From: a virus
Virus record (IMG/VR): IMGVR_UViG_3300017922_000133
Coordinates: 1 to 44,970 of that record
DNA: 44,970 nt
Strand: one strand, 5' to 3'
Part shown: in pieces, positions 16,899-44,970 of the stretch
Layout of the letters: the number at the start of each line of letters is the position of its first letter
Numbering within the stretch: position 1 is the first letter of the stretch
Position numbers and translations under genes: made by a program
The notes under the pieces: generated by a model
The model's database searches: none
What the model was told of the DNA's origin: nothing
What the model saw: the letters and a program-made list of their open reading frames with translations, nothing else

Positions 16899-17078
16899 AT
16901 GACAGTGGGAGAACAACTTGAGAAAAAGCAACCTCAAATATATAATTTCCTCATTGATTGTTTTAGTTTAGATATTAGAAAAACTACGAGGGTAGAGCCA
17001 GTAAATTTTGAAGAAGATGATCCTCTTTTTAATTATTTCAAGGAGATGATGGAAAAGCCGAGGGGAGTGAAATTGTAA
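16899..17078 (+). CDS. Small hypothetical protein
   Basis: A 59-residue protein starting MTVGEQLEKKQPQIYNFLID. AGGAG lies nine bases before the ATG; an in-frame TTG at 16890 has no site of its own. It shares one base with the next start (TAATG), indicating coupling to the late regulator. Family not recognised. Confidence 0.5.
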   Translation: MTVGEQLEKKQPQIYNFLIDCFSLDIRKTTRVEPVNFEEDDPLFNYFKEMMEKPRGVKL

Positions 17079-17542
17079 TGGAAACTAAAGTTAAAGACAG
17101 GATAGAAGAGCAGCTAAAAAATTATCCTTTTTTAAAATCAAAAATAAAAATAACAACAAACAAAATAGCATACCAGGAAGATTATGTAGCTCAGGCAATT
17201 GACTACTCTAAAATACCCGGCGGCAAAACTAATAGTGTGTATTCTGATGTTGAAGAATTTGTTCAGAATAAATTAGATAAACATCCTGAGTTAATAGAGT
17301 TAATCATGGAAAAAGAAAGAATAGATGCTGCATTAGAGTGTCTAACATACAAAGAAAAACGATTGGTAAGATATAAATATTTTGAAGATATGACCGATAA
17401 TGAAGTTAGTGATAAAATGCGGGAGCTAGAATTAAAGACATTTAGTATCAGAAATGATTCAACTGTCCGGGATTATTCAAGCACTACAATTCAGCGAATG
17501 AAGAAAAAAGTGCTAAAAAAGCTACAAAAAGTAGGGCTATGA
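17078..17542 (+). CDS. ArpU/sigma-region-4-like late gene regulator
   Basis: A 154-residue protein whose second half resembles sigma-70 region 4: ALECLTYKEKRLVRYKYFED, then MTDNEVSDKMRELELK, then SSTTIQRMKKKVLKKLQKVG, an HTH with the conserved YF and recognition helix. This is the ArpU/RinA-type group of phage transcription regulators encoded at the end of the early region in Firmicute phages. They switch on packaging and structural genes. Four GGGCAA boxes at exact 11-bp spacing begin eight bases after its stop and are its likely target. Confidence 0.75.
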   Translation: METKVKDRIEEQLKNYPFLKSKIKITTNKIAYQEDYVAQAIDYSKIPGGKTNSVYSDVEEFVQNKLDKHPELIELIMEKERIDAALECLTYKEKRLVRYKYFEDMTDNEVSDKMRELELKTFSIRNDSTVRDYSSTTIQRMKKKVLKKLQKVGL

Positions 17543-17549
17543 GGAAATT

Positions 17550-17588
17550 GGGCAACAATCGGGCAAAAAACGGGCAACTTTCGGGCAA
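17550..17588. repeat. Four GGGCAA boxes with exact 11-bp period
   Basis: GGGCAA occurs at 17550, 17561, 17572 and 17583. One helical turn separates each copy, so all face the same side of the DNA. The linkers differ (CAATC, AAAAC, CTTTC), so it is the hexamer and spacing that are conserved. The array lies directly after the ArpU-like gene and upstream of an extended -10, consistent with an activator array. Confidence 0.7.
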
Positions 17589-17605
17589 CATTTCCCTAGA
17601 AGGTG

Positions 17606-17614
17606 TGATATTCT
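17606..17614 (+). promoter_or_regulatory. Candidate late promoter, extended -10
   Basis: TGATATTCT gives TG-n-TATTCT with no -35 match in the right place; instead the GGGCAA array ends about 20 bases upstream. This is the layout of an activator-dependent promoter. The start would be near 17621. CTAGAA and TTCTAG also form a 6-bp inverted repeat around it. Confidence 0.45.
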
Positions 17615-17668
17615 AGTATTGTGGAAATAAATATAAACTTTGTTATGTTTATTTTCCTCCTTTATTTG

Positions 17669-17706
17669 AGCCCTGGCCTTGCACCTCCGGGGCTTTAATC
17701 AATTTT
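17669..17706 (+). terminator. Terminator-like hairpin before the late genes
   Basis: AGCCCTGG (17669-17676) pairs with CCGGGGCT (17687-17694) with one G-U pair and a 10-base loop, followed by an interrupted T-rich stretch. The stem is much more GC-rich than its surroundings. It would end early transcription, or attenuate a transcript from the late promoter. The 17543-17817 gap holds this hairpin, the 11-bp repeats and the candidate promoter; nothing else was seen. Confidence 0.55.
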
Positions 17707-17817
17707 GAGGGGCGAGGGAGATTATAAAGGGATTTGATTCATAAATAATATTAAAGAAAAATAGAGGTTTTTTCCTTACTTAATAGAATCAACTTATAGG
17801 GAGTGATATTATCTTTT

Positions 17818-18564
17818 ATGAAAAAAAGAGATATATTTTTAATATTTATGATCTTTTTTATTATCTTGTCTGCAACGTTGGTTTTAATATATTTATATTA
17901 TTTTAGCAATGATTTTTATAATAATTTAGCTTCTATTATTGGAGGGAGTATTGGAGGAGTAACGACTCTAATTGCAGTTCTAATAACAACTCGGCAAACA
18001 AGAAAGATACAAGAAACTAATAAAAATCATGAATGGAAAAAACATCAAATTGAAATTCGATTTAATTTAGTTAAAGAATTTTATGATATGTTATTGACGA
18101 TTAATAAAACATTAGGATTTTTATTTTCAAATCTAATTTCTAATGAAGATTACCAACATACTAATCAAAATGAAATATTTATAGAGAATAAGATTTATTT
18201 AAATAAAAAAGAGGCTATTAAGTTAATGAACGACTGTGAAGTATATTACGGAAAAATCAGACCATTTCTTAATAACGAAACCCATAAAGAATTTTTGAAT
18301 TTAGAGAATGATTTTGATTCTTTTGTAAAAATTACTGAAAATATTAATAAAGAAACAAAAACTATTTCAAGAAGAAAAATTAATCAATTATTACAACAAA
18401 ACGAAAAAGTACTGGAACAAATTATAATTTTAAGAAATTTAATTATTTCACATTATTTCAGTCCAGTTTTATATTATAAAGATACAGAAATTGAAAATAT
18501 TAAAAAAAGAGAAGAAGAAGAATGTTTTACAAAAGGTGGATATAAGAAATTTAAAAATATTTAG
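17818..18564 (+). CDS. Two-pass membrane protein with cytoplasmic helical domain
   Basis: A 248-residue protein with two membrane segments (about residues 6-30, IFLIFMIFFIILSATLVLIY, and 38-60, SIIGGSIGGVTTLIAVLI), followed by a basic stretch (TTRQTRKIQETNKNHEWKK) and a long helical cytoplasmic domain. The plan is common among predicted phage-defence or superinfection-exclusion membrane proteins, but no family is certain. The start is uncertain: ATG 17818 is 14 bases from AGGGAG; GTG 17803 overlaps it. It is more AT-rich than its neighbours and sits between the terminator-like hairpin and the methyltransferase promoter, as an inserted cargo gene would. Confidence 0.55.
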   Translation: MKKRDIFLIFMIFFIILSATLVLIYLYYFSNDFYNNLASIIGGSIGGVTTLIAVLITTRQTRKIQETNKNHEWKKHQIEIRFNLVKEFYDMLLTINKTLGFLFSNLISNEDYQHTNQNEIFIENKIYLNKKEAIKLMNDCEVYYGKIRPFLNNETHKEFLNLENDFDSFVKITENINKETKTISRRKINQLLQQNEKVLEQIIILRNLIISHYFSPVLYYKDTEIENIKKREEEECFTKGGYKKFKNI

Positions 18565-18665: not shown

Positions 18666-20039
18666 ATGGAACTAGTCGAAGTGATTAAATTGGTGGATGT
18701 TGATGATTTGATACCTTATATTAATAATCCAAAAGAGCATCCTACAGAGCAGATAAATAAAATTGCTAGCAGCATTAAAAATTATGGTTTTACAGTGCCT
18801 TTAGTTATAGATAACCAGAATGAAATAATTGCGGGCCATGGTCGTTATGAAGCAGCTAAGAAATTAGGACTAGATGAAGTTCCCTGTATTGTAAGAGACG
18901 ATCTCAATACAGCTCAAATAAAAGCTTTAAGAATAGCTGATAATAAAGTGGCTGAATCTGAATGGGATTATGAAATGCTTGGAATAGAACTTGAGGATTT
19001 AAGCTTGCAGGGGTTTGAATTAACTTTAACTGGATTTGATGATGATGAAATAGAAGCTATCTTACAAACCGGTGAAGAAGAGGAATTAAGGGATGATGAC
19101 TTTGATGTTGATGCAGCTTTAGATGAAGATTATTTAACTGAAAAAGATGATATCTGGCTGCTTGGCAGACATAGAGTATTATGTGGAGATAGCACTGATA
19201 GCTCAGATATTGACCGTTTAATGGATGGTAAAATAGCAGACATGGTTTTTACTGACCCACCTTATAATGTTAATTATGAGTCTAGGAATGGCCTTTCAAT
19301 TGAAAATGATGATATGAAAAATGATGAGTTTTATAATTTTCTTTATGATTTTTATGATGCTGCATTAGAACATACTAAAGGAGGCGGTGCAATTTATGTC
19401 TGTCATGCTGATTCTGAAGGAGTAAATTTCCGGAAAGCTTTAACTGATTCAGGTTGGTTATTAAAACAGGCAATAATCTGGGTTAAAAACCAGTTAGTGC
19501 TTGGCAGGCAGGATTATCAATGGAAACATGAGCCTATTTTGTATGGTTGGAAACCGGGAGCTGCTCATTGCTGGAATGGTGACAGAAAACAGACAACCGT
19601 TATCCAGGATTCACCACAAGTGAAAGTTAAAGAAAAGGGAGATTTATTTGAAATACATTTTGATACAGGAATTCATACTGTAGTTATGAGAGTGCCTTCC
19701 TATGATATTTTAAGCAGTGGTGATGACACCGATAAAACAATCTGGTATTTTGATAAGCCAGTGAAAAGTGCTGAACATCCAACAATGAAGCCGGTAGGAA
19801 TACCTGGCCGAGCTATAAAAAATTCTTCAAAGAAAGATGAAATAGTTTTAGATCCTTTTGGAGGTAGTGGCTCTACGTTAATCGCAGCAGAACAGACTGG
19901 TAGGATTTCTTATTTAAACGAGTTAGATCCTAAATATGTTGATGTAATAGTTAAGCGATATATAGAATTTAAGAATAATAATTCTGATGTATTTTTAATT
20001 AGGGGTGGAGAAAAAATTCCATATAAAGATTTAATTTAA
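18666..20039 (+). CDS. ParB-N / DNA N6-adenine or N4-cytosine methyltransferase
   Basis: A 457-residue fusion. Residues 1-95 form a ParB/sulfiredoxin-like domain with IIAGHGRYEAAKKLG; 160-440 form a beta-class methyltransferase with MVFTDPPYNVNYE (DPPY near 197-200) and DPFGGSGSTLIAAEQTGR near 395-412. There is no cognate restriction gene, so it is a solitary phage methylase that may protect phage DNA or mark it for packaging. This fusion is often found just before terminase genes in Firmicute phages. It has its own strong promoter and is followed by a terminator. Confidence 0.92.
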   Translation: MELVEVIKLVDVDDLIPYINNPKEHPTEQINKIASSIKNYGFTVPLVIDNQNEIIAGHGRYEAAKKLGLDEVPCIVRDDLNTAQIKALRIADNKVAESEWDYEMLGIELEDLSLQGFELTLTGFDDDEIEAILQTGEEEELRDDDFDVDAALDEDYLTEKDDIWLLGRHRVLCGDSTDSSDIDRLMDGKIADMVFTDPPYNVNYESRNGLSIENDDMKNDEFYNFLYDFYDAALEHTKGGGAIYVCHADSEGVNFRKALTDSGWLLKQAIIWVKNQLVLGRQDYQWKHEPILYGWKPGAAHCWNGDRKQTTVIQDSPQVKVKEKGDLFEIHFDTGIHTVVMRVPSYDILSSGDDTDKTIWYFDKPVKSAEHPTMKPVGIPGRAIKNSSKKDEIVLDPFGGSGSTLIAAEQTGRISYLNELDPKYVDVIVKRYIEFKNNNSDVFLIRGGEKIPYKDLI

Positions 20040-43894: not shown

Positions 43895-44970
43895 ATGGGT
43901 AGATGTTGTATAGATTGCTTTAATGATAGTATTTTAATAAATTATATTGAAGAATATGGTTCTCTGGGACGTTGCAACTATTGTGGTTCAGATAATATTA
44001 TGAGTATTGAAATTTCAGAACTATCTGATCTGTTTCAACAATTTTCAGATATTTATGAAGTAACAGCTTATGGGGAACATTATGGTCCTGGTCAAAGTGC
44101 TTTGGATAGAGGAGAATTGCTGACAGAATTTGTTCAGAACGATTGGTATATTTTTAGTGATGAGTTAACTCTAGATGAGAAAAGTTCATTATTTTTTGAA
44201 ATTATTAATTTTAATAGATCTCCCGAATATTGTTTAGATGATTGTGATTTATATTCACGAAAAGAAGATTCATTTCTATATGTAGGGGGTGAAACTATTT
44301 GGGATGAGTTTTGTGAAAAAATAAAACACAAAAATAGATTTTTTATTGAGGATAGCTGGTTGAAAGAATTTCTTAATAATACAATTCATCAATATTCTCA
44401 TTCTATAGAAGAGAATACCATTTTATATAGAGCTAGAATAATGAAAAATGATCAATCTGAAATTTATTCTGCTGAAAAAATGGGGCTGCCCCCGAGAAAA
44501 AAACAAAAAATGGGAGAGCAAATCCTATAGGAATCCCATATTTATATCTTGGTGATAAACCTGAAACTGTTATATCAGAAGTTAGGTCTTCAAAAGGTGC
44601 AAGAATAACTGTAGCAGAATTTAATTTAGCAGAAACATTAGAGATAGTTGATTTGACAAAATACAAGTATTTCAAGTCAGCTTTTGAATGTGATGATTTA
44701 GAAGAAGAGTTACTAAACCATGATTTGGTTAGAGAATTTAGTAAAAGTCTGTCTACTCCAGTAAATTCAGATTATGATGATATTGACTATATTCCTACTC
44801 AATATTTAACTGAATATATCAAAAATCTTGGATATTATGGTATTAAATTTAAAAGTTCTCTTAGTGATGGTGAAAATATAACTTTATTTAGCGAAAATCA
44901 AGTAGAAATAACAGATATCTGTTTATATAAAGCAGAAGACATAAATTATGAGTTTAGCAAAATAACTTAG
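43895..44970 (+). CDS. HEPN/RES-domain toxin-like protein, frame interrupted (-1)
   Basis: A cargo gene of about 358 residues when read across a -1 shift. The first frame (43895-44530) has a zinc ribbon (CCIDCF ... CNYCGS), then a HEPN/RES N-terminal domain (LLTEFVQNDWYIFSDELTLD, WDEFCEKIKHKNRFFIED) and the start of RES (NTILYRARIMK, AEKMGLPP). It then ends early at 44530. The -1 frame continues with the RES core: NGRANPIGIPYLYLGDKPET, VISEVRSSKGARITVAEFNL and LEIVDLTKYKYFKSAF, to a TAG at 44968. RES domains degrade NAD+ in toxin and abortive-infection systems. It may be shifted on purpose at A AAA AAA or be a pseudogene. GGGAGGT precedes the ATG. Confidence 0.78.
44497..44503 (+). other. A AAA AAA slippery run in the HEPN/RES gene
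   Basis: In frame the codons are AGA AAA AAA CAA, giving A-AAA-AAA followed by C, a known type of -1 slippery heptamer. Slipping back one base gives ACA AAA AAT GGG AGA, which restores the conserved G-R-A-N-P of the RES domain. A missing C in the preceding C5 run would equally explain the shift. Confidence 0.6.

Follow-up and report, generated by a model that had tools for sequence, protein, structure and literature searches.

Regulator gene and repeat array of the viral window

The window, that is the whole stretch of viral DNA that was analysed, comprises 44,970 bases, in which genes for an integrase, recombination, an SSB and RusA are followed by a regulator gene (17078-17542) and then by the terminase, portal and later genes. 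The features found at the regulator gene and directly behind it, some of them predicted, are the following.

17078..17542, + strand: gene of the late transcriptional regulator (phrog_36; 154 aa, pI 8.9, weak sigma-region-4-like C-terminus)
17550..17555, + strand: box 1, GGGCAA (GAGCAA in 8/8 close relatives)
17561..17566, + strand: box 2, GGGCAA (kept in 8/8 close relatives, which represent 3 distinct sequences)
17572..17577, + strand: box 3, GGGCAA (kept in 8/8 close relatives)
17583..17588, + strand: box 4, GGGCAA (start 26 bp 5' of the -10 hexamer)
17603..17628, + strand: stretch that matches nTGTGnTATAATnnTATTATnGAAAA, the promoter core of the family
17606..17614, + strand: TG-A-TATTCT, the extended -10 belonging to the predicted late promoter (core score 22.5 bits)
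17623..17656, + strand: A+U-rich hairpin, predicted to form where the late RNA begins (z -4.1 for 17621-17705)
17668..17695, + strand: terminator-like hairpin GAGCCCTGG/CCGGGGCTT, then the broken T-run TTTAAT (TTTTAT in 8/8 close relatives)

Other genes of the window were also observed. A 253-aa ORF (17803-18564), with a hydrophobic stretch near its start as judged by eye, separates the late promoter from the terminase genes and matched no Pfam, PHROG or PADLOC family. A ParB-like domain fused to a DNA methyltransferase is encoded just 5' of the terminase genes (18666-20039), and near the end of the window an ORF (43895-44530) begins with a HEPN/RES domain (PF18870) and may encode a toxin or a defence protein.

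The stop codon of the regulator gene ends at 17542 and the array stands directly behind it, with GGGCAA at 17550, 17561, 17572 and 17583, all on the + strand and with an exact period of 11 bp. Four copies of GGGCAA-N5 occur once in the window and in none of 100 dinucleotide shuffles. A search over all hexamers of at least three letters, for four perfect copies evenly spaced by 7 to 30 bp, gave this array alone in the 44,970 bases and nothing in 20 second-order Markov shuffles; the single hexamer is not enriched in the window (8 found vs. 13 expected). The TG at 17606-17607 is followed by A and by TATTCT at 17609-17614, 20 bp 3' of the last box, and a promoter scan gave no consensus -35/-10 pair using this TATTCT on the + strand. 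Since box 4 begins 26 bp before the -10 hexamer, it overlaps the position of a -35 element. Both elements thus stand as given in the preliminary description, namely four identical boxes at an exact 11-bp period directly behind the regulator gene and an extended -10 lacking a -35. No Rfam family was assigned to the locus, isrJ reaching 23 bits, below its cut-off of 37.

A repeat of this kind might also arise by chance or within a coding sequence, and 51 of the 60 other fourfold GGGCAA-N5 arrays in viral contigs do lie inside open frames of at least 100 aa, which indicates that the pattern alone is often coding. In the window, however, the array follows a stop codon, no open frame of at least 50 aa runs across it, shuffling never reproduces it and it is kept in relatives, so that a chance or coding origin is extremely unlikely.

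The regulator protein

In a PHROG profile search, the regulator of the window matched phrog_36, "transcriptional regulator", with an E value of 1.5e-17 over residues 6-151, and more weakly phrog_248, the Alt-like phrog_2198 (E 8e-4) and the sigma factor family phrog_1740 (E 0.0034). Region 4 of sigma-70 (PF04545) scored 15 bits, under the Pfam cut-off of 24.1. An NCBIfam search gave no match at E<=1 to either the RinA model TIGR01636 or the ArpU model TIGR01637; the family models lend no support to the earlier label ArpU-like. The regulator of Listeria phage PSA scores 158.9 bits with TIGR01636, above the curated cut-off.

The predicted model of the window regulator is of low confidence (pLDDT 59), and its C-terminal half resembles region 4 of SigL (3hug_G; Z 4.3, rmsd 2.5, 64 residues aligned). 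For a homolog from a C. difficile phage, AlphaFold (pLDDT 81.6) predicts two long helices paired as a hairpin, with a small helical domain at the C-terminus. Its structural comparison was dominated by coiled coils (Z up to 9.2), which is uninformative for helical hairpins, and no sigma factor stood among the 50 matches listed. A sequence search of solved structures returned nothing useful.

Conservation and reach of the GGGCAA box

Eight viral contigs encode a regulator 93-94% identical to that of the window, and their DNA downstream of it amounts to three distinct sequences. Boxes 2 to 4 and the -10 TGTGATATTCTA are kept in all eight, and box 1 reads GAGCAA. The 15 bp between array and core carry five changes in two of the three distinct sequences and two in the third, and the 26-bp core carries one.

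In the viral contig collection, the combination of three GGGCAA boxes and, 10-30 bases behind them, TGTGATAT was found only in the eight relatives. Four copies of GGGCAA-N5 are present in 57 other viral contigs, and none of these has a phrog_36-type ORF within 1.2 kb of the array. On these two grounds, GGGCAA-N5 was rejected as a family-wide signature. Other members of the family have other boxes, e.g. TGGCAC, TTCCC, GAGACT, TGACCCG and AGTTCC. To judge from these sequences, the GGGCAA hexamer is private to the clade of the window phage and the layout is more widely shared. The earlier proposal that GGGCAA would define the DNA target of the whole family finds no support as worded, given the confinement of the hexamer to one clade and the different boxes of the other members. 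The search for GGGCAA-N5 in other phages that had been suggested along with it gave a divided answer, as the hexamer did not extend beyond the clade and the phased layout did recur behind homologous regulators.

Many unrelated viral contigs (L009-L065, e.g. L013, L017, L020 and L048) have GGGCAA-N5 tandem repeats. These often precede runs of AAGAATG-like repeats and are perhaps iterons in replication genes, and in L016, L018 and L027 paired GGGCAA arrays lie 86-87 bp apart.

Phased repeats at the stop codon of homologous regulators

Regulators of the phrog_36 type were collected from 291 genomes of one class, the kin of Clostridioides (107 with matches), and further regulators came from 225 genomes of one order, 135 of which gave matches, as well as from phages and plasmids known by name. 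The survey took part of the listed genome matches, and genome loci were entered on the regulator match rather than on an individual check of phage context. Filters for redundancy, length and flanks reduced set 1 from 109 to 93 loci, and 93 of 128 loci were kept in set 2, giving 186 non-redundant loci in total; L077, L078 and L001 (duplicates), L002-L006 and L008, and L086 and L088 (partial matches) were left out of the sets. Direct matches of at least 5 bp around the regulator stop codon were counted at each lag and compared with shuffled sequences, and three regions served as controls: 250-390 bp further on, inside the regulator gene, and upstream of the gene.

In set 1, the observed and shuffled counts were 447 and 99 at lag 10, 362 and 101 at lag 11, 211 and 85 at lag 20, 212 and 91 at lag 22, and 137 and 83 at lag 33; lags 21 and 22 are less telling because the far control was itself in excess there (2.0x and 1.9x the shuffles, respectively). 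At lags 10 and 11, the controls of set 1 stayed at 0.5-1.8x the shuffles. Set 2 gave 4.5x the shuffles at lag 11, 5.0x at lag 22 and 2.2x at lag 33, as compared to 0.6-1.1x, 0.9-1.4x and 1.5-1.7x in its controls. An early array test, which covered the whole stop-codon region with looser spacing, was significant (p<=0.05) in 25 of 93 loci vs. 6, 3 and 2 of 93 in the controls. Repeats with a period of 10 or 11 bp are strongly enriched at the stop codon, and weakly or not at all in the control regions.

This result bears on whether the boxes bind the small terminase subunit, as a pac or cos site, instead of the regulator. Sites of the pac or cos type often lie upstream of packaging genes, as the boxes do here. 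The gene for the small terminase subunit is nevertheless 2.5 kb away (20107), the arrays of the family track the regulator stop codon and the -10, and the box varies between phages, all of which makes a terminase site highly unlikely.

Shared promoter core and geometry of the arrays

The core nTGTGnTATAATnnTATTATnGAAAA was present with at least 8 bits in 128 of the 186 loci (14/185, 5/185 and 6/186 in the three control regions), and 58 of the 186 regulators had no core promoter at this score. The core search had been seeded with a consensus made by eye, and for this reason the core learned on set 1 was tried on the held-out set 2, where it was found in 69 of 93 loci vs. 10/92 in the far region, 6/93 on the reverse strand and 8/93 in shuffled sequences.

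Arrays upstream of the core were scored in 115 of the 128 loci (13 unscored) and were significant in 56 of 128 at p<=0.05, 47 of them at p<=0.01, compared with 3/128 in controls; by the detector used, the other 72 of the 128 core-promoter loci have no significant array. In 37 of the 56, the array starts before the end of the regulator stop codon, so that operator and gene end are the same DNA there.

The arrays fell into two classes, period 10 and period 11, of 22 and 34 loci in the phase clustering, where one mixed locus was placed by hand, and of 23 and 33 otherwise. In the period-10 class, the last box mostly lies 19-21 bp before the -10 (17/23); in the period-11 class, it is most often 26-27 bp before it (11/33), a register that varies with which six bases the detector picks. 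The phase lock to the -10 reached a resultant of 0.192 in the period-10 class, vs. a null maximum of 0.133. In the period-11 class, it is weak and suggestive at most, with R 0.124 as compared to 0.054 for the mean and 0.140 for the maximum of the null. Close to the C-terminus, 19 of 23 period-10 regulators and none of the 33 period-11 regulators have an R-x-H-x-x-A-L-like motif, and the two geometries go with two types of helix-turn-helix.

A recognition code was also sought. In the period-10 class, the similarity of the recognition helices correlated with that of the boxes (Spearman 0.24, Mantel p 0.0035), and so did N-terminal similarity (0.22, p 0.023; partial 0.16); in the period-11 class, to which the window belongs, the recognition-helix value was 0.02 (p 0.31). 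No such code is claimed, the covariation being weak and not clearly apart from overall relatedness in period 10, and absent in period 11. The regulators of this large family stand beside their own operators in a near-fixed register to a shared core, so that many regulator-operator pairs can be read from genomes, and from these pairs rules of DNA recognition can be worked out and tested with reporters.

The array as probable operator of the late promoter

Phased boxes behind homologous regulators, a shared core and known late promoters with the same layout together suggest that the four GGGCAA boxes very probably serve the late promoter of the phage as its operator and are recognised by the product of the regulator gene just upstream. 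The earlier view of an activator array for late transcription is supported by the comparison, in which phased boxes keep a constant spacing to the extended -10 that the loci share.

The position of the array, where the early operon closes, would also suit a negative operator through which the regulator controls itself, or a roadblock to early transcription. Against this, the fixed distance to an extended -10 lacking a -35 fits activation, and in phage phi13, promoter activity needs the repeats and ltr expression is unchanged in phage mutants (PMC13123087). A negative operator or roadblock is therefore very improbable.

If the boxes are the late operator, events may be pictured as follows. The early operon, in which the regulator gene is seen to lie, would produce the regulator, whose sigma-region-4-like helix-turn-helix would bind each box, and the 11-bp period would line up several copies on the same side of the helix. 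At box 4, the bound copy would stand at the -35 position, replacing the -35 element, and would help RNA polymerase, with a sigma factor that recognises TG-n-TATTCT, to begin transcription near 17621. The late genes, i.e. methyltransferase, terminase, portal and those beyond, would then be transcribed.

A terminator-like hairpin behind the late promoter

A predicted hairpin with a T-run lies 8-138 nt 3' of the -10 in 92 of the 128 loci, as compared to 3/128 in shuffled sequences and 14/128 further downstream. The T-run has a median position of 64 nt after the start of the -10 and precedes the next RBS and ORF in 79 of the 81 loci where these were found, the median lead being 37 nt. Upstream of the -10, to a distance of 130 nt, such a predicted hairpin occurs in 5 of 128 loci only, and no other extended -10 was found within 60 nt after the T-run (0/92 loci). 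It follows that the first late gene is reached through the terminator-like hairpin. Predicted terminators lie 24 nt before terS in TP901-1, 48 nt before it in phi11, and 22 nt before the next gene in both PSA and TPDSL_ph2; in A118 and phiC2 the predicted terminator is weaker or further off, and none was found behind the late promoter of phiCD27 or LP-HM00113468. The hairpin of the window (17668..17695) has -14.2 kcal/mol and a broken T-run, where the relatives have TTTT.

Two observations concern the late leader itself. Close to the expected start, a conserved GGAAA is complementary to a TTTCC further on and pairs with it in several phages (window, phiC2 and phiCD27), which would give the late RNA a hairpin at its very beginning (17623-17656 in the window, at the same place in relatives). 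In Listeria phage PSA (L071, 1568-1703), the late leader contains rli62, an Rfam family reported as a Listeria RNA, which starts about 30 bases past the -10, and rli62 may be a short RNA made from the late promoter of PSA.

The plain reading of the terminator-like hairpin is a leaky terminator for early transcripts. Since the late polymerase must pass it, antitermination in the style of lambda Q is a testable possibility. In phage lambda, the late promoter on which Q acts is directly followed by a terminator, which Q overcomes by antitermination; the predicted hairpin has the same position in most relatives. The sigma-region-4-like late regulators of Firmicute phages might then be two-step factors, which recruit polymerase and afterwards carry it past the terminator, as an independently arisen Gram-positive counterpart of lambda Q. 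We regard this suggestion as tentative and rather unlikely. In its first step, the regulator on phased boxes at the -35 position would recruit polymerase to the extended -10; in the second, it would stay with the polymerase or mark it, allowing read-through of the intrinsic terminator before the first late gene. For phi13 Ltr, activation at initiation has been demonstrated, as opposed to antitermination, with a reporter that ended 50 bp past the start (PMC13123087); such activation is thus real in phi13, and a terminator further on would lie outside that construct. Searches of an open-access library, which was without the main papers on RinA and Alt, gave no treatment of how the late operons of such well-studied phages as phi11 and TP901-1 pass the stop signal before their terminase genes.

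Comparison with known late promoters

Relative to the -10, the GGGCAA boxes of the window start at -59, -48, -37 and -26. In phi11, TGGCAGT behind rinA is repeated at lag 11 from -38; A118 has TGGCACTTTTT and PSA TGACCCGTTT, both from -38, with LP-HM00113468 alike, and phiCD27 has GAGACT in four 11-bp steps from -59 to -26. One register is thus common to phi11 rinA, A118, PSA, LP-HM00113468, phiCD27 and the window, with repeats that begin 38-37 bp and again 27-26 bp ahead of the -10. The RinA promoter of phi11 and the promoters of A118 and PSA resemble that of the window in their 11-bp-lag boxes, register and kind of -10, and differ from it in having two strong boxes (TGGCAG, TGGCAC or TGACCCG) where the window has four GGGCAA. 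The PSA regulator belongs to TIGR01636, whereas the window protein has no RinA model match at E<=1.

TP901-1 shares with the window a regulator gene directly upstream, repeats (CACGAAA) at a lag of 11 bp and the core, in the form TGATATACTTGTATTATGAAG, behind alt; its repeats, however, are imperfect and CACGAAA-like instead of GGGCAA, and its leader contains tRNA genes. According to PMC13123087, Ltrs generally bind four imperfect repeats, and TP901-1 Alt binds four imperfect direct repeats from -76 to -32; the window boxes would occupy about -71 to -33 given a start at 17621. The same source states that the late promoter P23 of phi13 requires both its regulator and its repeats (PMC13123087). 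The regulator, an Ltr of family IV, is encoded directly upstream as in the window, and the repeats, needed in phi13 for promoter activity, are unlike those of the window in being 18 bp long and lying over the 3' end of the gene, from -107 to -42 (PMC13123087).

Taken at the level of DNA sequence, the late promoters of phi11, A118, PSA and TP901-1 share the layout of the window, and the first three also its register. The switch of the window almost surely belongs with the RinA/Alt/Ltr late activators, a known type, with a box sequence specific to the phage.
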